A stretch of 64,000 bases of DNA, taken from assembly GCF_000733935.1 (NCBI RefSeq), contig NZ_JPON01000001.1, positions 1,612,001-1,676,000 of the forward strand. The letters run 5' to 3'. Shown in pieces: positions 42,547 through 55,104 of the stretch. The notes beneath the pieces are model-generated. The model had not been told where the DNA came from, made no database searches, and worked only from the letters and a program-made list of their open reading frames with translations. This DNA comes from Methylomarinum vadi (GTDB lineage: Bacteria > Pseudomonadota > Gammaproteobacteria > Methylococcales > Methylomonadaceae). Position numbers and translations under genes: made by a program. Numbering within the stretch: the first letter of the stretch is position 1; the number at the start of each line of letters is the position of its first letter.

Positions 42547-43431
42547 CTACAATTCCTGCATGCATAAACGCAGGGCATCTCGCCAAGGCGGCATTTTCAA
42601 TGAAAATTTTTTCTCCAATTTATCGAGCGACAACTTCGAATTCATCGGCCGTCGCGCCGGAAGCGGATAGGATGTGGTTGGAATCGGTTCGATATGCCGC
42701 ACTGAAACAGGATGTGTTTCACTCTGCCTGGCCAGGTCGATGATTGCCTCGGCAAAATCATGCCAACTGGCAGCACCGCTGGATGTTAAATGATAAAGGT
42801 CCGAACTGAAATCTCCCTGCCGCCTTTCGTGCTGGGATTGTTTTAGTACATGAGAAGTCGTTTCCGCAATCAAACGCGCCCAGGTCGGCGCACCGATTTG
42901 GTCAGCAACAATTTTCAATTCCTGCCGCTCCGCCGCCAGCCTCAGCATGGTTTTCAAAAAATTATGCCCGCGGGACGCATAAACCCACGAAGTCCGTAAT
43001 ATGATATGGTCGACACCGGATTCCCTAATGACGACCTCGCCGGCTAATTTGCTGTGACCGTAACGATTGATTGGACAAGTGTCATCGCTCTCTCGATACG
43101 GCCTGTCCATACTGCCATCGAAAACATAATCGGTTGAAAAATGCAGCAGCAGCCCATTACGGGCCTTCATCTCCTCGGCCATCACCAATGGCGCCTCGGC
43201 ATTGATCAAATGAGCCAGTTCCGGCTCCTGTTCGGCCTTATCGACGGCGGTATAGGCAGCCGCATTGACGATTATATCTGGTCCGATTCGACGGATTTCA
43301 TGGCGTAATTGCCCGAGTTCGGCCAGATTCAATTGTTGTCGTGTCGCGGCGATCACCTCACCCAGCGGCAATAAGGTCCGCGCCAACTCCCAGCCGACTT
43401 GGCCGTTACTTCCCGTGACCAATATCTTCAT
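42547..43431 (-). CDS. rfbD: dTDP-4-dehydrorhamnose reductase
   Basis: Final step of dTDP-L-rhamnose synthesis. The Rossmann motif TGSNGQVGWEL starts at residue 6, and the SDR Tyr-x-x-x-Lys is in YGHSKLAGE. The ATG at 43431 overlaps the rfbC stop (ATGA) and gives 294 residues, the normal length; the longer frame to 43644 is antisense read-through within rfbC. Last gene of the rfbBACD order. Confidence 0.95.
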   Translation of the reverse strand: MKILVTGSNGQVGWELARTLLPLGEVIAATRQQLNLAELGQLRHEIRRIGPDIIVNAAAYTAVDKAEQEPELAHLINAEAPLVMAEEMKARNGLLLHFSTDYVFDGSMDRPYRESDDTCPINRYGHSKLAGEVVIRESGVDHIILRTSWVYASRGHNFLKTMLRLAAERQELKIVADQIGAPTWARLIAETTSHVLKQSQHERRQGDFSSDLYHLTSSGAASWHDFAEAIIDLARQSETHPVSVRHIEPIPTTSYPLPARRPMNSKLSLDKLEKKFSLKMPPWRDALRLCMQEL

Positions 43432-43976
43432 GCGAAATACTCGGCTTGTTCGAAGGATACGCCTTGTTGATCCTTGGCGGACAACCTTGGCTCGCCGTCG
43501 AGAGGCCAGTCGATATTCAGTTGCGGGTCGTTCCAAATGATGCAACGTTCGTGTTCCGGCGCATAATAATCCGTAGTTTTGTAGAGAAAATCCACGCTGT
43601 CCGACAGCACGACGAAGCCATGCGCGAACCCCGGCGGCACCCACAGTTGGCGGTGATTTCGCTCACTCAATTCAACGCCAACCCATTGGCCGAAGGTCGG
43701 AGATGAGCGGCGCAGGTCGACGGCGACATCGAATACACTACCGCTGCCGACGTAAACCAGTTTGCCTTGCGGTTGTTTAATCTGGTAATGCAGGCCTCGC
43801 AAAACATTTTTGCTCGACCGCGAATAATTGTCCTGAACAAAATCGGGTTCCACACCGGTGACCTGGGCAAAAGTCCTTTTATTGAAACTTTCCTTGAAAA
43901 AACCGCGTTCGTCGCCGAACACTCTCGGCTCCAAAATCAAAACATCCTTTATCTTGGTGGAAATCACTTTCATCAA
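43428..43976 (-). CDS. rfbC: dTDP-4-dehydrorhamnose 3,5-epimerase
   Basis: Epimerises the C3 and C5 positions of the 4-keto sugar. The cupin fold shows [10 protein letters not shown], the active-site His in LRGLHYQ and a conserved [10 protein letters not shown]. The 182-residue length fits. It overlaps both neighbours (rfbA stop and rfbD start). Confidence 0.96.
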
Positions 43977-44848
43977 AACACCCTTTCCTGCAGTAAACGC
44001 ATCAAGTACTTGCCATAATTATTTTTCAGCAACGGCTCGGCCAGCCGTTTCAGTTGTTCGTCATCGATCCATTTCTTACGCCAGGCGATTTCCTCCAGGC
44101 AGGCGATCTTCAAACCTTGCCGGTTTTCGATGGTCTGAATGAATTGCGAGGCATCGAGCAACGACTCGTGGGTTCCCGTATCCAACCAGGCCATGCCTCG
44201 CCCCATGATCTCGACGGAAAGCTGTTGCCGCTGTAAATAAGTTCTGTTGACATCGGTAATTTCCAGTTCGCCACGCGCCGAAGGCTTGATCGACTTGGCG
44301 ATATCGACCACTTGATTATCGTAAAAATACAGGCCGGTCACGGCATAACGGGAGCGCGGCCGGGGCGGCTTTTCCTCCAGACTGACGGCGACGCCATCCT
44401 CGCCGAATTCAACCACGCCATAGCGTTCCGGGTCCTGCACCGGATAGGCAAACACGGTCGCGCCCTCCTGCTTTTGCGCCGCCCGCTTCAACATCGGTTC
44501 GAAATCATGGCCATAAAACAGATTGTCACCGAGCACCAGCGCACAGGTATCGGAAGCGACAAAGTCCTCACCGATAATGAATGCCTGAGCCAATCCCTCG
44601 GGCGCCGGCTGCACCGCATAACTGATGTCGATTCCCCATTGTTTGCCTTCGCCCAACAAATATTCGAAACGGCCGATGTCTTCCGGTGTCGAAATGACCA
44701 GCACCTCCCTGATTCCGGCCAACATCAACACGCTCAACGGATAATAAATCATCGGCTTGTCATGGACCGGCAGCAACTGCTTGGACACAGCCAGAGTCAC
44801 CGGGTGCAGGCGCGTGCCGGAGCCGCCCGCCAGAATAATGCCTTTCAT
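43973..44848 (-). CDS. rfbA: Glucose-1-phosphate thymidylyltransferase
   Basis: Makes dTDP-glucose from dTTP and glucose-1-phosphate. The nucleotidyltransferase motif [20 protein letters not shown] is at residues 8-27 and [11 protein letters not shown] follows. Length 291 is standard. It starts three bases after rfbB. Confidence 0.96.
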
Positions 44849-44851
44849 CGA

Positions 44852-45928
44852 TCAGCCTCCTGTATTCAAACCAAGCCGTTCACGTTGATAACTACCATCC
44901 TGAACCCGTTGCCACCATCCGGGATTATCCAAATACCATTGTATAGTCTTGCGTATGCCGCTGGTGAAGGTTTCCTGCGGCTTCCAGCCCAGCTCGCCGG
45001 CAATTTTCCCGGCATCGATGGCATAGCGTTGATCATGGCCGGGGCGGTCTTGCACATGGGTAATCAATTCCTCGTAACGGGAAATTCCGTTGGGATGGTC
45101 CGGCTTCAGTTCGTCCAGAATGGCGCAAATAGCTTTCACCACCTCAAGATTGGTTTTTTCATTATGTCCGCCGATATTATAGGTTTCGCCGACCTTGCCT
45201 CTCGTCACGACTTCGTACAAAGCGCGAGCATGATCGTCGACATACAGCCAATCGCGTATCTGATCGCCCTTGCCATAAATCGGCAGCGGCTTGCCTTCCA
45301 ACGCATTCAGGGTCACCAACGGAATCAGCTTTTCGGGAAACTGATAAGGGCCATAATTGTTGGAGCAATTGGTAATCAAAATCGGCAAACCGAAGGTTCG
45401 ATGCCAGGCTCTGACCAAATGATCCGACGACGCCTTACTGGCGGAGTAGGGAGAACTGGGATCGTAAGGGGTTTGTTCGGTAAACAAACCGGTTTTTCCC
45501 AAGGCGCCATAAACTTCATCGGTCGAAATGTGGTGAAAACGAAATGAGGCTTTTTCCTCGCCGTCTAATTCCAACCAATAATTTCGCGCCGCCTCCAACA
45601 ATATATAAGTCCCGACGATATTGGACTGGATGAATTGCGCCGGCCCGTCGATTGATCGATCCACATGCGATTCCGCCGCCAGATGCATGACAATGTCGGG
45701 GTGGTGCTCGACAAACAAGTGCGAGACCTTATCCGCATCGCAAATATCAACTTGGGCGAAATGGTAACGCGGATTTTCTATGACACCGGCCAACGACTCG
45801 AGATTACCGGCATAGGTCAATTTATCGATGTTGAAGATTTCATGATCGGTTTCCTCGATCAGATAACGAATGACAGCGGAACCTATGAATCCGGCCCCGC
45901 CGGTGACAAAAATTGATTTTTTATTCAT
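44852..45928 (-). CDS. rfbB: dTDP-glucose 4,6-dehydratase
   Basis: NAD-dependent SDR enzyme that makes dTDP-4-keto-6-deoxyglucose. The cofactor motif [11 protein letters not shown] is at residues 9-19, [15 protein letters not shown] is typical, and the catalytic Tyr-x-x-x-Lys is in [10 protein letters not shown]. The ATG at 45928 is chosen over a TTG two codons upstream. As the first gene of rfbBACD it should be served by a promoter in the 330 bases before it. Confidence 0.96.
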
Positions 45929-46264
45929 TTGCAACCCTAGTTGTTATTTATACTTCCTGTCTAATACGCGACTCATGAAATACGCCGTCGAAATGCAGTA
46001 TCTGCAAGCCTTGTTTTTTGGCTTATAGAATACTTTTCCATTTTAGACTATTTATTCAACGGCCGAGGTTATTTCGGCTACTGCGCCCAAACGGGATGTC
46101 CGATAAACCATCGGAAATAACTAACGATAATTTCTCAACAATCATATAAGATTACATAGTAGACGAGCTTTTTACTTTGTTCCAAGCCAGTCCGGTCGGT
46201 TCTATGATTTGTGGTTCCTCCGTAACCCAACAATACGCCATCTTTCTAATCACTTATTCGCGGT
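45929..46264. other. Intergenic region between rfbB start and transglutaminase gene end
   Basis: This 336-base stretch is A+T-rich and has no convincing gene on either strand. GTTATTTC and GAAATAAC form an eight-base inverted repeat separated by about 45 bases near 46070-46130. A promoter for rfbB is expected near its left end, but no clear hexamer pair stands out. Confidence 0.4.
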
Positions 46265-47059
46265 TTAGGCGGGGGGCGCTATTTGTTCAACTCCGACATC
46301 CTGGGCAATTGGGCTAACCGCTGGACCAAACTGATTATAAATGGCCACGTCGGCCGCATCCCGCCCATAGCCGACGGCTATATATCCACTTTGTAACTGC
46401 GCCTGGGTCGCATCGAACGTATACCATCGTCCGCCGACATAAGCTTCGAACCAAGCATGCAGTTCCATTGGCTGCAGACCATAGAGATAACCGACCACCA
46501 TACGAGCGGGTATGCAGAGGGCACGGCATAGCGCGATGCCAAGATGAGCCAAATCCCGGCAGACGCCTTGTTGCTGTTGGTTAATCTCGATGGCCGATAA
46601 TGGTATCACGCTCGAACCGGGACAATAACGGATGTTCTGCCTGAGCCAGCCGACAATAGCGGCGACCTGATCGTAGCCGGGCAATTCTCCCGAAGTAATC
46701 TCCGTGGCGAGACTGCCAAAGCGATCCACTTCGCAATAACGACTCGGTAGCAGATAGGCTAATACACTTTCCGGCAATGTTGGAATTTCGTTAAATGGAG
46801 CGCCCGGCGCTTGATCGATGGAGTCGGCCGTCATCACTTCCGAGGAGGTGTGCACGGAAAACCGGCCAACGGGTGCGAGCAAGCGTTGGCAAAGATTGCC
46901 GTAGCCATCGGTGTATTCAAAGGCAACGACATTGGGAAGCAAGGTATATTCTTCCCTGGCCACCCATTGCTGGTAACCGCTGCGGGGCCGCAACATCAGA
47001 ATGAACGGCGTTGGCACTTTGATTTCGAAAGTCAGATCACAACGGGCTCGTAACCACAT
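46265..47059 (-). CDS. Transglutaminase-like cysteine protease-fold protein
   Basis: The papain-like triad is intact: Cys167 in [11 protein letters not shown], His201 in [10 protein letters not shown] and Asp216 in YTFDAT. An N-terminal beta-rich region (residues 1-90) matches the bacterial transglutaminase N-terminal domain. Such proteins act as proteases, cross-linkers or amidases, and are often found beside carbohydrate or peptide-modifying enzymes. No signal peptide is evident, so it is probably cytoplasmic. It starts nine bases after the PLD-like gene and ends the glycogen-associated gene run. Confidence 0.85.
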
Positions 47060-47068
47060 GGCTAATAA

Positions 47069-48664
47069 TTAATAAAAGACTCTGAAACTTCGGCGTATTT
47101 CATCGAATTCATACAGATAGGGTTTCGCCACCTCATGATTGGCGGCAACGACTATCAAGTCGTGTGAAAAAACCGAAGTGTTATACCAATTAAAACTGCC
47201 TTCGATGACGATGTAATCGTCGATGACGCAATATTTGGAATGGATCGGCGAATAAGGCACCGGATGGTCGTCTTGTCCGTAAACCAGGCCGATCGGAATA
47301 CCGGCATCCTTCAATCGTTGCACGGCCGGCAGTAACGGCCGGTTCAATTCATCATGCATGCTCCGTTCGACGCCGATCCGACCCTGTCGCGCCAAATGGC
47401 CGTTGAATAAAATATGCACATCGACGCCGCGATGCCAAGCCTGTATCAGGGCATTAACGACACTGTCATGATGGTCGCCCAACAAATCGCCGATTAAAAA
47501 CAGGCAAATGCGGATGGAATGGCGGGCGCGGTGAATCTCCGCCAGGATGGCGTGGTGCGGCAGGTATTTCTGCCCGTTCAACATCGTGTGGCGGCCGAAA
47601 GTATACAACAGATTGAAATGGCTAAGCGGGTCGATACCGTACTTCTGGATCACGCCGCCACGCTGGCTTTGGAAAATGTTGTCCAGCAAACGGCAAACCC
47701 CCTTGGAATGGAAGGTCATGCCGGACTCCCAATTGGCCCACCAACGATCGAAGGTAATGTTGAACGACCCCAGGATAGCATCTTCGTCGTTGAAGATGAT
47801 GAACTTGGTATGCATGTCCGGTTCCACTTCGATCAAGTGATGCTTGGGCGTACAGAACACGCCGACGAGTTCGACTCTCGACTGCTTCAGGCGGGCATAG
47901 GTATGGCTGTTGGTCATCGTCATCTTGCGCCAGTCGACGACACACTGGACGAAAACCCCCTGCTCGCTGGCGTGAATCAGGTGATTGATGAAATCATTGT
48001 CGTCGATACAATCGACGCTGACTTTGATGGTGCAAAACCGGTCGGGGTTCTGCCATTTGCAATGTATGACCTTTTCGATATGGTCATGGATGAAACGCTT
48101 GGGATGATAGGGATGATGCGGCTGCCCCTTGGTAAACTTAGGAGTCAAATGCAAGGATTCGAAATGATGGTTGTACCAATCGACGTCGCTTTGCAATTCC
48201 GCCGCATTTAATTCATAGGTCCGGTAATGATTCGGCGTGCACCATTCGCCATTGATATGGCGCTGCTGCGGATAACCATCCTGCAATTGATGCCAATCCA
48301 TGAAAATATATTCTTTCTCCGACGGAATGGAATGTTCGTTAATATGGACGACATAGGCAATCTTGATACAATTGATTTTGCCGAAATGGGTCGAAAACGG
48401 ATATACATAAAAATCCCGCGTGCTGCGTTTATGTCGGTCCCATTGAATATCGTAAGGGTCGGTATCGACAATGTAGGTTTCGCAAACGTGATTATCTCGA
48501 TAGACCTTCAGAATCACCTTCAAATTTGCCGATACGCCATGATACATCTCGAAATCGATCTTCCCCCAGCGAATATCGAAGGTATCCCTGAAATCGTTGA
48601 TCCGTTGAAAATACCCTCCTAACTGGCCAAAAAAAGGTCTGGCGTATTGTTCAGCGAACTGCAT
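47069..48664 (-). CDS. Phospholipase-D-like protein with two HKD motifs
   Basis: The 531-residue product has two PLD catalytic motifs: HTKFIIFND with a downstream GSFN (near residue 285) and HSKYCVIDD with GSFNWYN (near residue 475). Both copies keep His and Lys, so phosphodiester cleavage or transfer is likely; the exact substrate cannot be read. The first about 130 residues are beta-rich with many aromatics and lie outside the PLD core, and may form an added binding domain. There is no signal peptide. It lies 58 bases after the CBM21-EEP gene. The ATG at 48664 has AGAGG upstream and is preferred over a GTG two codons earlier. Confidence 0.85.
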   Translation of the reverse strand: MQFAEQYARPFFGQLGGYFQRINDFRDTFDIRWGKIDFEMYHGVSANLKVILKVYRDNHVCETYIVDTDPYDIQWDRHKRSTRDFYVYPFSTHFGKINCIKIAYVVHINEHSIPSEKEYIFMDWHQLQDGYPQQRHINGEWCTPNHYRTYELNAAELQSDVDWYNHHFESLHLTPKFTKGQPHHPYHPKRFIHDHIEKVIHCKWQNPDRFCTIKVSVDCIDDNDFINHLIHASEQGVFVQCVVDWRKMTMTNSHTYARLKQSRVELVGVFCTPKHHLIEVEPDMHTKFIIFNDEDAILGSFNITFDRWWANWESGMTFHSKGVCRLLDNIFQSQRGGVIQKYGIDPLSHFNLLYTFGRHTMLNGQKYLPHHAILAEIHRARHSIRICLFLIGDLLGDHHDSVVNALIQAWHRGVDVHILFNGHLARQGRIGVERSMHDELNRPLLPAVQRLKDAGIPIGLVYGQDDHPVPYSPIHSKYCVIDDYIVIEGSFNWYNTSVFSHDLIVVAANHEVAKPYLYEFDEIRRSFRVFY

Positions 48665-48722
48665 TGTCACCTCTTAAGTATTTCTTAGTTCTTTGCCGAC
48701 TGTCGAAGCAATAAAAGTGCCA

Positions 48723-50228
48723 TCACTTCGGCTCGAATGTCATGATAAAGCCGCAATGATCGGAAACACGACCATAATCCTGTTCGGTAAACACTACACG
48801 CGCCGTGGTTACCTGCAAGGAACTCTCCTTATTCATAAAAATATAATCAATCCGGTAGTCGTCAGCTAGATAATCGCGCCAATGGGGGTCATTGACGCGA
48901 AAAACCTTCTCGAACAAGCCCTGTTCGTTGGCCTGAAGATACTGATCTTCATATTCGTGGCTGTTGACCACCAGCTGATACCCCTCTGAACCCGCGGCGA
49001 TATTGAAATCGCCGCAGAGCAGTGTGCCCTTGACCTGTTTCGTCTGCTTGCTTGAAGCCCATGCGCACAAACGCTGAAATTGCTGCTCGAAACCATCTTC
49101 CCACCAACTCAGGTGGGCGGAAAAAAAATTAACCACCCCCATGTACGGTATCCGCACCTGCGCCATGACGACTTTGCGCGAATGAATGCTGTAGATATCG
49201 TCGCTGTCCGACACATAACGCCCTTCCTGTTTAAGCGGCGGGAAACGGCTTAAAATCGCGACGCCCTCGCGGTATTTGTCGAAACCCAGATGCGACCAAT
49301 CGGCCACTATATGATAGGGCGCGTGCAGGCGTTGATTGATGATGTTGGCCGAATTGGATTCCCAATCGCCATGGCCGCCGCTCCAATGTTCCGCAACTTC
49401 TTGAAAACAAACGATGTCGACTTGTTGTTCGTCGATGGCCTTGGCGATCTGCCAAAACTTCTGGTCTTGCTCCGTTTCCTGATAACAATGCAAATTCAAG
49501 ATCATCACGGTCAACGGCTTACGACTGGCGACATAATTGCGCCCTTCGTTATTATCCCACAGTATTTGGCCGTGCGCTTCGCAGCAAATACTGTACTGCA
49601 AACGGAAGGCGCTCCCAATTCTGAGGCGGCCGCTCCAAACTTGTGCACCATATTGGTTCGGATTACGCGCGTTACTCTTGGCCTTGCCATCCCAGTAATT
49701 TTTCTTGCAATGGCAGGTGGTCTTGAAGGTATGCTGCCAATTATCCACGGTCCAATGAATCGTGACTTTTTCGGCATGCACCGTTTTATCCAAAACCACG
49801 GTGATCGGCAGGGTTTTCTGCCCTTCCTGCAATTGGTTGTGAAAACCAACGTTATGCACCAGAATTTCCGGCCCTAATTGAATACCCGAGTCGGCCTGGC
49901 TTTCGTAATTATGGCCATGGCTGTTGTCCCAGAATTCCTGACCTTCGACCCGATAACGTAAACCGAAGCGGATATTACCAGGCAATGCTTGGTTGGCAGT
50001 CAGGGGAAAACTGGTTCGAACCATCCAATTCTCGACATCGTCATGCCAATGACTATGGTACTGCACCGGCAGGGTGTGCCAGACGCCATCCTCGCCCGAC
50101 CAGATGACATCGACTCGCTTGTCATAGCTGACATTTTTTACCCGCATGAAAAAGGTCAGCTCCTGCCGGGGCACCTTTTTCTTTCTGCTGATGACATTTT
50201 CAACGTATATCAGCTGAATCGGTTTCAT
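48723..50228 (-). CDS. Two CBM21-like glycogen-binding domains fused to an EEP phosphoesterase
   Basis: Residues about 22-110 and 120-235 each end with a CBM21 signature (WDNSHGHNY at 100-108, WDNNEGRNY at 224-232), the pattern of starch/glycogen-binding domains such as those of PP1 glycogen-targeting subunits. Residues 242-501 form an endonuclease/exonuclease/phosphatase domain with a complete active site: Asn245 (ILNLHCYQ), Glu277 (CFQEVAE), His372 (FSAHLS), Asp407/Asn409 (GDFN), Asp461 (RIDYIF) and Asp490-His491 (SDH). It has no signal peptide. It lies between a GH57 gene and a PLD-like gene. Its likely role is Mg-dependent phosphoester hydrolysis at glycogen; substrate unproven. Confidence 0.8.
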   Translation of the reverse strand: MKPIQLIYVENVISRKKKVPRQELTFFMRVKNVSYDKRVDVIWSGEDGVWHTLPVQYHSHWHDDVENWMVRTSFPLTANQALPGNIRFGLRYRVEGQEFWDNSHGHNYESQADSGIQLGPEILVHNVGFHNQLQEGQKTLPITVVLDKTVHAEKVTIHWTVDNWQHTFKTTCHCKKNYWDGKAKSNARNPNQYGAQVWSGRLRIGSAFRLQYSICCEAHGQILWDNNEGRNYVASRKPLTVMILNLHCYQETEQDQKFWQIAKAIDEQQVDIVCFQEVAEHWSGGHGDWESNSANIINQRLHAPYHIVADWSHLGFDKYREGVAILSRFPPLKQEGRYVSDSDDIYSIHSRKVVMAQVRIPYMGVVNFFSAHLSWWEDGFEQQFQRLCAWASSKQTKQVKGTLLCGDFNIAAGSEGYQLVVNSHEYEDQYLQANEQGLFEKVFRVNDPHWRDYLADDYRIDYIFMNKESSLQVTTARVVFTEQDYGRVSDHCGFIMTFEPK

Positions 50229-50327
50229 CGATTTTTCTCCATTGCGTGGCTAATCAACCATATCTCAACATACAGCCGTTCCATCATTGATCCGCCGGTC
50301 TTAGTGGCAACCCCCTTGCTCCAACTG

Positions 50328-51959
50328 TCATTCGGGCAAAGCAGGCAAGATTGTACCGAATTTCGAGGTGCTGCCGGTATAAGTTCTATAATCGATAGCC
50401 GGAAAAATATCGTCCATGATTTCCAACGCGGTCAAGTAACGCTCGTCGATACGGTTTTTGCGAATACAATCGTGCAGGTAATTGAAACGCGCCAGATGAT
50501 CGGTGATCCGCTTTCGCGCATAATCGGCGTCGGTCCCGGATTTCATGATAAAAGGCCAATCAGAAGCTTGCGCCAGCAAAACCGAACGCAATGCCTGATT
50601 CAACCCGCGGCGTTGTAACTCGCTCACCGTCAATCCAAGCAAATCTTCGGCCAATTTTTCCATTTCGGCGGCGGCTTGATGTAATAACGGGTAAATCCAA
50701 TCGTTACTGTCATTGAGCCAATAGGAAGAATACCCTTCATTCCCCCAACTGGACGCCGAAGGTGTCGCCTGCTGTTGCTGGGGATAGCGCAGTAGATATT
50801 CCTTGCTCGTTTGTAAACGGATGTTGCTTTCGTCATTGGCCGCCAACCGCAACACTTGCTCCAGCCACTGCGGCCCTTCAAACCACCAGTGTCCAAATAA
50901 CTCGGCATCGAAGGGAGCCACGACAACGGGAGAGCGTTCCATCGTAGCGCTCAATTTATCGCATTGCCGCCGCCGTTGTTGAATAAAATCAGCGGCATGT
51001 TGCTTGGCCCTGATGCTGGCGAGCTCGGGTCGGTAGATCGCCTTTTCGACGCCTTCGCCGGTCACTCGATGATATTTGATGCCGGTATTGATGCGCGTTT
51101 CGTCGTCGAGCATATAAGGCCCAACGTAATCCAAGTCCAACTCGAAGCCGATATCGCTGTAAAATTCACGATAATCGACATGACCGGGATAACCTTCCTC
51201 CGCGCTCCATACTTGCCGAGACGAGTGAGGATCCCGGCCGAATGCGCACACGCCGTTACCACAATCGAGGGGGGCATAAACCCCATGAACCGGCTCGATT
51301 GACGCATCCAGAATACCGTGGCTATCGACGAAAAAATAACGAATTCCGGCCTCCCGCAGACTCTGTTCCAGTCCTGGATAATAACCGCATTCGGGCAACC
51401 AAAACCCATCCGGCCTGAACCCAAAAGCGTCATGAAAAGTGTCGATACCGGTGTTGATTTGACAGCGCACCGAGGTCAAACTGGTATTCAATAACGGCAG
51501 ATAACCGTGGGTCGCGGCGGTTGTAAGCAGTTCCAACTTGCCGGAGGCCTGGTGTTTTTTGAAAGCCGTCAGTAAATCGCCTCGATATTGGTCCCGATAA
51601 ATCCGCAACGTCTCTTTGAACAATTCCCGGTACCACACGGCAAGTTTGTAATAATCGGGGTGCTCGCGGGTTCGTTCAATTTCCTTGTCGGCCAGCTCCA
51701 ATAAACGATTCAGATGGTCCAAATACCGGCTTCGCAATAACTCATCCCGCAACAGCGTGATCAACGTCGGCGACAACGACAGGCTCAAACGATAATCGAC
51801 CCGGTCGGCCTGCAATCGGTCGAGCATCGCCACTAATGGCACATAACACTCCGTGATGGCCTCGAACAGCCAGCTTTCCTCGAAAAAGCGTTCATATTCG
51901 GGATGCCGTACATAAGGGAGATGAGCGTGAAGAATAATATTGAGAAATCCTTGTTTCAT
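50328..51959 (-). CDS. GH57 1,4-alpha-glucan branching enzyme
   Basis: GH57 branching enzymes form alpha-1,6 branches in glycogen. The 543-residue product opens with ILHAHLPYVRHPE, contains the nucleophile Glu190 in FWLPECGYY and the acid/base Asp351 in APFDAELFGHWWFEG, and has the C-terminal helical domain (DUF1957-type) ending the protein. The ATG at 51959 overlaps the DUF4912 stop as TAATG, so translation is coupled. Family members can also be amylopullulanase or 4-alpha-glucanotransferase; size and C-terminal domain favour branching. Confidence 0.87.
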   Translation of the reverse strand: MKQGFLNIILHAHLPYVRHPEYERFFEESWLFEAITECYVPLVAMLDRLQADRVDYRLSLSLSPTLITLLRDELLRSRYLDHLNRLLELADKEIERTREHPDYYKLAVWYRELFKETLRIYRDQYRGDLLTAFKKHQASGKLELLTTAATHGYLPLLNTSLTSVRCQINTGIDTFHDAFGFRPDGFWLPECGYYPGLEQSLREAGIRYFFVDSHGILDASIEPVHGVYAPLDCGNGVCAFGRDPHSSRQVWSAEEGYPGHVDYREFYSDIGFELDLDYVGPYMLDDETRINTGIKYHRVTGEGVEKAIYRPELASIRAKQHAADFIQQRRRQCDKLSATMERSPVVVAPFDAELFGHWWFEGPQWLEQVLRLAANDESNIRLQTSKEYLLRYPQQQQATPSASSWGNEGYSSYWLNDSNDWIYPLLHQAAAEMEKLAEDLLGLTVSELQRRGLNQALRSVLLAQASDWPFIMKSGTDADYARKRITDHLARFNYLHDCIRKNRIDERYLTALEIMDDIFPAIDYRTYTGSTSKFGTILPALPE

Positions 51960-52801
51960 TAACTGCGCTTTCCTCCCCCGGAGGCATTGCCATGCATAAA
52001 TCGACGACCTTGCTGAAGCCTTGTAGGCTTGCCCGATTCGACAAACGGTGTCCGTGGGATATAAGTGGTCTCGGAACAGGCAAAGGAAGCAAAATGCCGT
52101 TCAGTCGGTCGCCAGCCGATAGCCGCGGAATAATAATTGCCGGTCATCATTGCCGGTACGGTCACTTTAAACTGATTTAGGCCGGACTCAATCGGCAAGT
52201 CAAACCAGTTCGGCTTTTCGCCGGGCACGGCTTGGTCCTCGAGCATGGCGTAAATTCGCAATGTCAGCGGATGACTTCCCTCCTTCCGCAATTGCTCTTC
52301 ATCGAGATGCCAGTAGGCGTGCAAGTGGTCCGGGTCGACCGGCAACAATACGATTTCCGAGTGAGGTATTTGGGGTGAAGCCCGTACGGCAAATTCACGA
52401 CTAATTTCTTCGCTAATTGACCGCATCTCTTGTGGCGCCAGTTTGATTGAGGGCTTTTTTCCCAAAAAGTGGCTGGAGTATTTCGGACTAAAATCGCGAC
52501 TGACCTGTTCGCTAATAACCAGCATTTCCCTAGGTGACAGCCTGATTCGGGAACCGTGCCTACTCTGAGAAGTCGCCATCTCCCGCAATGATAAAGTATT
52601 TTGAGCTTCCATACAGCCGACATGCTTGGCCGGACTATCATTATCTGAAAAAATCAGCCATCCGGACACACTCATCCCTGGAGCTTTTCCGGGTCGGGAT
52701 GGAAGACTTTGACTTATTTCTTCCATCAGCAATGAGCAGGGGTAATTAATAATGACCTCTCTTGCCAACGAAGGGTCAATGTTGTCTCCGGACGAACACA
52801 A
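51959..52801 (-). CDS. DUF4912 protein, first gene of the glycogen-associated set
   Basis: The C-terminal half matches DUF4912, with SEIVLLPVDPDHLHAYWHL and later PAMMTGNYYSAAIGW. DUF4912 genes often neighbour GH57 branching enzymes. The N-terminal half carries a duplicated helical motif: LSPREMLVISEQVSRDF (88-104) and LAPQEMRSISEEISREF (121-137). The start is unclear: the maximal frame begins with TTG at 52801, while ATGs lie at 52726, 52675 and 52612 without clear ribosome sites. It is divergent from glgX across a roughly 190-base A+T-rich region. Confidence 0.72.
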   Translation of the reverse strand: MCSSGDNIDPSLAREVIINYPCSLLMEEISQSLPSRPGKAPGMSVSGWLIFSDNDSPAKHVGCMEAQNTLSLREMATSQSRHGSRIRLSPREMLVISEQVSRDFSPKYSSHFLGKKPSIKLAPQEMRSISEEISREFAVRASPQIPHSEIVLLPVDPDHLHAYWHLDEEQLRKEGSHPLTLRIYAMLEDQAVPGEKPNWFDLPIESGLNQFKVTVPAMMTGNYYSAAIGWRPTERHFASFACSETTYIPRTPFVESGKPTRLQQGRRFMHGNASGGGKRS

Positions 52802-52992
52802 CTAACCATGAACGCTTGAAAACTCTACCTGTTGACGTTCATTTATGCAAGGCATTTATAGTTGTCATTAATTTATTACATGAAAAAACAAGACATTTTC
52901 GTTTAATTAGCGGTTTTTCGATATAAAAATACGCATTTCGCTGTTTATATGCAGTAAAATGACGCATTTTAAAATTCACCCTATTCAACAAC

Positions 52993-55104
52993 ATGCAGAG
53001 CGTCGGATTTAAAGTCAAACCCGGAAGCCCCTACCCTCATGGAGCCAAGCTCAACGATGGCGGCGTCAATTTTTCCATTTTCAGCCGTCACGCCGAAGAA
53101 GTGGAGCTATTACTGTTCAAGTCGGTAGATTGCAAGGAGCCCTTCCAGACAATCCAGTTACACAAAGACCGCAATCGTACCTTCTTTTCTTGGCATGTAT
53201 TTGTAAAACATCTGCCCGCTGGCACTTGGTATACTTGGCGCATAAAAGGTCCCACAGACACCCGGCACAGCGGTCTGCGTTTCGATCCGGACAAACATCT
53301 GCTTGATCCATGGGCTAAAGCAGTCAGCGACAAACATTGGGACAGGACTGCCGCCTGCCTGCCGGGAAATAATGGCCACTGTTCCATGCGTAGTGTCGTC
53401 GTGGATGATCATTATAATTGGGAAGGCGATAAACCGCTGGCCATCCGCAGTGAAAAAGCCATTATTTATGAACTGCATGTAGGAGGTTTTACCCGCCACC
53501 CGTCGGCCGAAGTGACTAACCCCGGCACCTTCTTAGGGCTGATAGAAAAAATCCCCTACCTCAAGGAACTGGGCATCACCCATGTCGAACTACTGCCAGT
53601 GATGGCTTTCGACGAACAGGATGTGCCCGAACATACCGCCGAGCTGGGATTAGAAAATTACTGGGGTTACAGCACCCACAGCTTCTTCAGCCCTCACCCC
53701 GGTTATTGCTCGACGCCGGACCAAGGCACTCACCAGAAGGAATTCCGCGACCTGGTCAAGGCCCTGCATAAAGCCGGCATCGGCGTCATCATGGACGTGG
53801 TGTTCAACCATACTTCCGAAGCGGGCGCCGACGGACCGGTCATCAATTTCAAGGGCATCATCGGTAACAGCTTTTATCTGATCGATAAAGTGGATAAAAG
53901 CATTTTTCACGACTATACCGGCTGCGGCAACACCGTCAACGCCAACCACCCACTGGTATCTCGCTTCATCATCAGTTGCCTGGAATACTGGGTGCGCGAC
54001 ATGCATGTCGACGGTTTCCGCTTCGACTTGGCAAGCGCCTTGTCGCGCAGCGAAGACGGCACGGTATTGCAAGACCCTCCTATCGTCTGGGGGATCGAAC
54101 TATCGGAATTGCTGGCAAAGACCAAATTGATCGCCGAAGCCTGGGATGCTACCGGTCTCTATCAAGTCGGTTGTTTTCCGGGTTACCGCTGGGCCGAATG
54201 GAACGGCATTTACCGGGATGTCATCCGTCAATTCGTGCGCGGCGACAAGGGGTTAATCAGAGATGTCGCCACGCGCATCTGCGGCAGCAGCGATTTGTAT
54301 GAGCATCAACATCGTCTCCCGATCAGTAGTATCAATTTCGTCACCTGCCATGACGGCTTCACCTTATACGATTTATTCAGCTATAACGAAAAGCATAACC
54401 TCGCCAACGGCGAACATAATCGCGATGGCTGCAACCATAATCTCAGCTACAACTGCGGCGTCGAAGGGGAGACCGACAATCCTGAAATTCAGGCATTACG
54501 CCGGAAACAAGTGAAAAATGTTTTCGCAATATTATTGCTCAGCCAGGGCGTCCCCATGTTATTGGCCGGCGATGAATTTTTGCATACCCAGCATGGTAAC
54601 AACAATTGTTATTGTCAAAATAACGAGCTGACCTGGTTGGACTGGAACAAGGCCGAGCAAAATGCCGACATGGTGCGCTTTGTGCGGCTGATGATTAAGC
54701 TCCGTAAAAGACATACGGCCTTGATGCGGAGGCATTTTTTCAGCGGCAAAAAACTTAAGAACCGGGACATCGCCGATATCACCTGGAGCGGATTACAGCC
54801 CGGCGAAACCCCCGATTGGCATGACCACGATTCACAGTTGCTTGCTTTCACCGTCGCGGCCCTCGACCCCAAGGAGCCCGACGTGCATATCGTCATTAAC
54901 ATGTCGGAGCACCAACATAGCGCCACCCTACCCGATATTGATGGCAGAATTTGGAATCTATCGGTGGATACCTCTTTACCGTCGCCTCACGAAATTATTC
55001 CCAGGGCGGAACAAACACCGATTAACGAAACCCAATATTACATCAACGCTCGCTCAGTAGTGGTGTTCGAAAATTCCATTATCGAAACCGGTGCCGAGGG
55101 ATGA
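52993..55104 (+). CDS. glgX: Glycogen debranching enzyme
   Basis: GlgX hydrolyses alpha-1,6 branches left by phosphorylase. The 703-residue GH13_11 protein has an N-terminal CBM48-like domain beginning PGSPYPHGAKLNDGGVNF. The GH13 regions follow: VVFNHTSE, the nucleophile Asp in GFRFDLASAL, the acid/base Glu in KLIAEAWDA, and FVTCHDGFTLYDL. It is divergent from the DUF4912-GH57 set and is followed by an 18-pair hairpin. Confidence 0.95.
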   Translation: MQSVGFKVKPGSPYPHGAKLNDGGVNFSIFSRHAEEVELLLFKSVDCKEPFQTIQLHKDRNRTFFSWHVFVKHLPAGTWYTWRIKGPTDTRHSGLRFDPDKHLLDPWAKAVSDKHWDRTAACLPGNNGHCSMRSVVVDDHYNWEGDKPLAIRSEKAIIYELHVGGFTRHPSAEVTNPGTFLGLIEKIPYLKELGITHVELLPVMAFDEQDVPEHTAELGLENYWGYSTHSFFSPHPGYCSTPDQGTHQKEFRDLVKALHKAGIGVIMDVVFNHTSEAGADGPVINFKGIIGNSFYLIDKVDKSIFHDYTGCGNTVNANHPLVSRFIISCLEYWVRDMHVDGFRFDLASALSRSEDGTVLQDPPIVWGIELSELLAKTKLIAEAWDATGLYQVGCFPGYRWAEWNGIYRDVIRQFVRGDKGLIRDVATRICGSSDLYEHQHRLPISSINFVTCHDGFTLYDLFSYNEKHNLANGEHNRDGCNHNLSYNCGVEGETDNPEIQALRRKQVKNVFAILLLSQGVPMLLAGDEFLHTQHGNNNCYCQNNELTWLDWNKAEQNADMVRFVRLMIKLRKRHTALMRRHFFSGKKLKNRDIADITWSGLQPGETPDWHDHDSQLLAFTVAALDPKEPDVHIVINMSEHQHSATLPDIDGRIWNLSVDTSLPSPHEIIPRAEQTPINETQYYINARSVVVFENSIIETGAEG

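Follow-up and report, generated by a model that had tools for sequence, protein, structure and literature searches.

A gene encoding a protein with two CBM21 domains and an EEP phosphoesterase domain was conserved as the partner of a gene encoding a PLD-like protein, and the pair was linked to glycogen genes across a single bacterial family, an arrangement best explained as a two-gene module associated with the glycogen metabolism of a single methanotroph family. The locus was identified in a 64,000-nucleotide stretch of the Methylomarinum vadi genome (the window, meaning the whole stretch that was analysed). This genome comprised 4.34 Mb in one contig and encoded subunit A of AMO/pMMO, as did 21 of 22 other genomes sampled from the same family, which we therefore took to be methanotroph Gammaproteobacteria. 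All six open reading frames that an earlier sequence-only reading of this DNA had named were found in the window, and Pfam and TIGRFAM profile matches bore out the domains that it had assigned to them (Table 1). The spacing it had given (1, 99, 58 and 9 bases) agreed with ours: DUF4912 and GH57 overlapped by one base, 99 bp separated GH57 from EEP and 9 bp separated PLD from the transglutaminase-like gene. The distance between EEP and PLD was 52 bp when counted from the GTG start of the PLD open reading frame, and the figure of 58 bp held for the ATG six bases further in (position 48664), which is the likely start. Simple scans of the window for promoter and terminator sites returned no more than were found in shuffled sequence. 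Beyond the transglutaminase-like gene on the minus strand, positions 42547-45934 of the window resembled by eye the dTDP-rhamnose genes rmlB, rmlA, rmlC and rmlD.

Table 1. Genes of the glycogen-associated run in the window, with the domains of the CBM21-EEP and PLD-like proteins
Feature	Position	Strand	Length, profile matches and remarks
Transglutaminase-like protein (TGL)	46265-47059	-	264 aa; Transglut_core, 1.7e-22
PLD-like protein	47069-48670	-	533 aa; two PLDc_2 stretches, 2.1e-36
N-terminal domain of PLD-like protein	48221-48670 (residues 1-150)	-	orphan, beta-rich, ~150 aa
CBM21-CBM21-EEP protein	48723-50228	-	501 aa; two CBM21 stretches, 3.7e-21; Exo_endo_phos, 1.3e-16
CBM21-A	about residues 7-109		both PTG sites kept
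CBM21-B	about residues 137-236		PTG site I only
EEP domain	about residues 239-499 of 501		EEP fold
GH57 glycogen branching enzyme	50328-51959	-	Glyco_hydro_57, 129.8 bits; BE_C, 111.9 bits; both above cut-offs
DUF4912 protein	51959-52801	-	DUF4912, 3.3e-10
GlgX glycogen debranching enzyme, divergent	52993-55104	+	TIGR02100 equivalog, 686.9 bits vs cut-off of 640.9

Conservation of the EEP-PLD pair and its linkage to glycogen genes

Gene order was mapped in 25 EEP-bearing genomes of the family and one MAG, sampled at one genome per species, with a few hundred genomes sampled outside the family. In 23 of the 24 loci where both were visible, EEP and PLD were immediate neighbours on one strand, no more than 245 bp apart; in the exception (G012), ~3.2 kb of opposite-strand open reading frames separated them. 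Two further genomes carried EEP at a contig edge, with PLD at the edge of another contig in one and absent from the assembly in the other. Over 61 relatives, presence and absence of the two genes matched with two exceptions, namely a weak, partial match to PLD in one case and, in another genome, an EEP gene cut off by the end of its contig. The sequence-only reading had held that a conserved order elsewhere would support a system and that scattered distribution without co-occurrence would speak against one; for EEP and PLD the order was seen in other genera of the same family and such scatter was not seen among these 61 relatives. Because the order was kept in relatives whose proteins shared 53-80% (EEP) and 73-90% (PLD) identity, the pairing is more than chance. 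PLD was the more constrained of the two, with a mean column identity of 83% vs 69% for EEP. At the thresholds used, profile searches for EEP and PLD over the class (369 genomes each) returned only the query genome, besides matches to the EEP domain alone, as did a PLD profile search over the phylum (398 genomes), and a search of viral contigs returned neither protein. A scan of genome contigs with a single-sequence query, in which coverage of named organisms was thin, yielded one locus.

The pair was situated within glycogen loci in 18 of the 25 family genomes, in two arrangements. Thirteen genomes had the order DUF4912-GH57-EEP-PLD (in one of them with the pair within 2.3 kb), often with GlgX nearby, and five had glgB-glgA-EEP-PLD, flanked on the other side by glgC, malQ and, usually, a further GH57 gene. 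In four of the 13, both kinds of locus were joined in one island, with PLD abutting or convergent to glgA. DUF4912 regularly lay directly upstream of the GH57 branching enzyme, both in the window genome and in relatives, irrespective of whether EEP was linked. Across 37 family genomes, EEP and the C-domain of the GH57 branching enzyme occurred together in 23, EEP alone in two, GH57 alone in one and neither in 11 (Fisher p = 1e-6, uncorrected for descent). The two genes were unlinked in 10 of the 23 genomes carrying both, so linkage does not explain their co-occurrence; glycogen synthase was near-universal in the family (34/37 genomes). A tree-aware pair test pointed in the same direction in every informative pair, the four supported pairs giving it no power. 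Counting against the association were seven of the 25 pairs that lay away from glycogen genes, two that occurred without a GH57 branching enzyme, and one enzyme-bearing genome that had no pair.

Two further glycogen loci were observed during the comparison. The window genome had a separate classical locus (malQ-GH57-glgC / glgB-glgA at about 1982000-1990600 of G000:C1), giving it two branching enzymes (GH13 and GH57). Another family genome (G035:C58) carried glgC-glgB-glgA twice, as similar copies either side of a GlgX-DUF4912-GH57-EEP-PLD block.

The coordinated glycogen system proposed by the sequence-only reading thus stands as regards EEP and PLD, which kept their order and were linked to branching, debranching and synthase genes, and falls as regards the transglutaminase. 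This gene was beside PLD in no other genome seen, its proximity to EEP-PLD or to glycogen genes was not conserved, and its orthologues (54-67% identity) were located elsewhere in relatives. One such orthologue (G028) sat in a cluster with DUF2126, a circularly permuted ATP-grasp/alpha-E protein, a second transglutaminase and a proteasome-type protein. The window genome possessed the same cluster without the gene, suggesting that it moved beside PLD in this lineage. Relocation is the most likely account of its position, which would then tell nothing about glycogen.

Domains and relatives of the two proteins

The CBM21 profile matched the EEP protein at 75.9 bits against a cut-off of 28.9, and a CBM21 profile search also recovered PPP1R3B/3C/3A and Rhizopus glucoamylase. 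Sugar contacts were mapped from the PTG-cyclodextrin complex, which defines sites I and II (PMC9582199). CBM21-A retained site II (N32, Y/F35 and K37, the lysine invariant) and site I (W50, W100, N102 and N107), and CBM21-B retained site I (W164, W224, N226 and N231). Conservation of these residues argues strongly that the EEP protein is tethered to glycogen via its CBM21 domains. The protein is presumably cytosolic; no signal sequence was apparent by eye. None of the 397 other Pseudomonadota genomes in the sample had CBM21, and a CBM25 search of the window genome, run with no positive control, found none. On a plasmid of the betaproteobacterium Eleftheria terrae (NZ_CP106952.1; L142:7800-8570), a tandem CBM21 occurred as a stand-alone protein that shared 31% identity with the paired CBM21 domains of the EEP protein.

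The catalytic residues of the EEP domain (N245, E277, H372, D407, N409, D461, D490 and H491) were invariant in 26 sequences. A structural model of the domain (pLDDT 87) best matched 3TEB, an uncharacterised EEP protein, among solved structures, and the matches of a fold search included the mannosyl-6-phosphatase Bt3783, TDP2 and sphingomyelinase. Among plasmid-borne proteins, the one function-specific match was an annotated maltose 6'-phosphate phosphatase (MapP) of E. faecalis, which aligned with the EEP domain over its whole length (29% over 281 columns, 6e-23) and was the nearest characterised relative that we found. MapP of Enterococcus faecalis was reportedly described by Mokhtari et al. 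in 2013 as a maltose 6'-phosphate phosphatase acting on the disaccharide phosphate. Across the CBM-EEP proteins and seven MapP-type sequences, 31 residues were invariant. All seven of these sampled homologues (from Bacillota, Fusobacteriota and Enterobacterales) were encoded beside a PTS IIBC gene, and five also had a GH65 phosphorylase or alpha-glucosidase nearby, indicating that the characterised line of the subfamily handles phosphate on an alpha-1,4-glucoside. No alpha-glucoside-type PTS neighbourhood was found around the methanotroph EEP genes, whose neighbours were glycogen genes, and in a tree with long branches the MapP sequences formed a separate group. Two uncharacterised EEP proteins, a CBM-less paralogue and a lipoprotein of another order, were closer than MapP (34-43% vs ~30%), so that carrying the substrate of MapP over to the methanotroph protein means inferring it. 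With this kinship as the guide, the EEP part would most likely act by removing phosphate. The sequence-only reading had spoken of removing or adding phosphate, lipid or protein; removal of phosphate survives from that list in this qualified form, and nothing supports the addition of lipid or protein.

In the window genome the CBM-less paralogue (G000:C1:1433894-1434736; L056:9386-10240) was ~35% identical to the EEP domain and lay directly upstream of phosphoketolase (XFP); it was present in many family members. The lipoprotein-like EEP (43% identical) came from a distantly related gammaproteobacterium (G226, L123:7982-8968), where it followed an oxidoreductase-like gene.

The PLD-like protein carried two HxK...GSxN motifs, each followed by an acidic residue, and the residues concerned (H287/K289/N304/E315 and H477/K479/N494/D504) were invariant in 22 sequences, including an N in place of the usual D in the first motif. 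Its structural model was weak (pLDDT 67), and profile and fold searches matched PLD, PLD3/PLD4, NucT, mitochondrial PLD, phosphatidylserine synthase and polyphosphate kinase. The orphan N-terminal domain was well conserved in the family; as a candidate relative of carbohydrate-binding modules it was rejected, since neither CBM21 matched it by profile comparison and it had no Pfam match. To our knowledge, no glycogen role is known for the PLD partner, and a pathway shared with EEP, in which it would act on a phosphodiester, is speculative.

Proposed function and competing explanations

We give about even weight to the reading in which the EEP protein is a cytosolic, glycogen-tethered alpha-glucan phosphatase and PLD probably serves the same pathway by acting on a phosphodiester. 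The CBM21 domains would hold the protein on cytosolic glycogen while the metal-dependent EEP domain would act as a phosphomonoesterase on glycogen or long maltodextrins; C6 is the most likely position, by analogy with the action of MapP on maltose 6'-phosphate. PLD, via its paired HKD sites, might cleave or transfer a phosphodiester, for example by converting a diester-linked group into a monoester for EEP, and such two-step removal would, speculatively, account for the persistence of the pair. Phosphorylase, GlgX and both branching enzymes (GH57 and GlgB) would then still be able to use the chains. Branching enzymes, among them a bacterial one, bind alpha-glucan with lower affinity when it carries phosphate (PMC13011383), which would explain the coupling of EEP to branching. 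Two points count against a phosphatase: whether bacterial glycogen carries covalent phosphate is treated as open (PMC13011383), and no glucan kinase was identified here. The larger proposal, that bacteria have their own cycle of glycogen phosphorylation and dephosphorylation in which CBM21-EEP would be a non-homologous laforin and PLD a new glucan phosphodiesterase or phosphotransferase, is one that we consider unlikely.

Nucleases and lipases are familiar among proteins of both the EEP and the PLD fold, and glycogen might be only an anchor: PLD, as a phospholipase or Nuc-type nuclease, and EEP, as a nuclease or an enzyme like TDP2 or sphingomyelinase, would act on other phosphoesters brought to the granule, such as nucleic acid, phospholipid or a cofactor. 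TDP2 and sphingomyelinase among the EEP fold matches, a weak match of the EEP domain to the exoDNase III profile (4e-6), and PLD3/PLD4, NucT and mitochondrial PLD among the PLD matches all fit this; nevertheless, the nearest annotated sequence relatives were MapP-type sugar phosphatases rather than nucleases, and the tight linkage to glycogen enzymes and co-occurrence with GH57 also speak against it, leaving it doubtful. EEP could instead be a granule-localised phosphatase of soluble sugar phosphates (maltodextrin phosphate, glucose 1-phosphate or 6-phosphate) whose effect would be to draw flux at the granule surface and leave the polymer unedited. MapP itself acts on a disaccharide phosphate and the CBM-less paralogue adjoins phosphoketolase, yet two tethering domains are hard to account for on a soluble substrate, and the PLD partner and the coupling to a branching enzyme are left unexplained, so we hold it to be rather improbable.

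The lipid- and polyphosphate-related PLD fold matches (phosphatidylserine synthase, phospholipase D and polyphosphate kinase), together with the membrane-rich interior of type I methanotrophs, would suit a role of PLD and EEP in removing or attaching a diester-linked anchor (glycerophosphate, lipid or polyphosphate) by which glycogen is held to membranes or polyphosphate. As no lipid or polyphosphate gene was conserved in the EEP-PLD neighbourhood, this appears very unlikely. We see next to no prospect that the pair is an unrelated housekeeping operon whose nearness to glycogen genes reflects a single arrangement inherited in common: its confinement to one bacterial family in these samples and its separation from glycogen genes in 7/25 genomes would agree with that origin, but the glycogen arrangements were two and different, the glucan-binding residues of CBM21 were conserved, and GH57 co-occurred where it was unlinked.

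Significance and comparison with known systems

The pairing of EEP with PLD and its place in glycogen loci suggest that this family removes phosphate groups from stored glycogen. A conserved candidate phosphatase tethered to glycogen makes bacterial glycogen phosphorylation directly testable and, if the reading is true, would provide a bacterial model for phosphate control of branching, with bearing on Lafora disease, starch engineering and methanotroph carbon storage in biotechnology.

Animal laforin has been described as the only known glycogen phosphatase and consists of CBM20 and a cysteine dual-specificity phosphatase (PMC12834914). Like laforin and plant SEX4/LSF2, which are proposed to take phosphate monoesters off glycogen or starch and so keep chains branchable, the methanotroph protein would combine a carbohydrate-binding module with a phosphatase domain in one chain, the starch- or glycogen-binding part being two CBM21 domains where the module of laforin belongs to family CBM20. 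Unlike them, it is bacterial, is paired with PLD and is built from unrelated domains, joining two CBM21 to a predicted metal-dependent EEP; only CBM21 and Exo_endo_phos exceeded Pfam cut-offs, and no dual-specificity (Cx5R) phosphatase domain was found. MapP belongs to the same EEP subfamily by full-length alignment and has the catalytic and several flanking motifs in common, whereas it lacks a CBM and lies beside a PTS IIBC gene, in contrast to the two CBM21 domains and glycogen-gene context of the methanotroph EEP. The PPP1R3 proteins (PTG, GM and GL) share CBM21 with the same sugar-binding residues and bring a phosphatase to glycogen, but as separate adaptors for protein phosphatase 1, whereas here CBM21 is fused to the phosphoesterase. 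The PLD-like protein resembles Nuc/mitoPLD-type PLDs in its HKD motifs with GSxN and an acidic residue, and differs in the N for D of motif 1, the orphan beta-rich N-terminal domain and its constant CBM21-EEP partner. As in the known DUF4912-GH57 neighbourhood, DUF4912 lies directly upstream of the GH57 branching enzyme; across the genomes sampled, no other family had the added EEP-PLD pair. Set against these systems, the best reading of the module is a bacterial glucan phosphatase that, if confirmed, would be laforin-like by convergence, having arrived at a similar role with unrelated domains and an extra PLD component.
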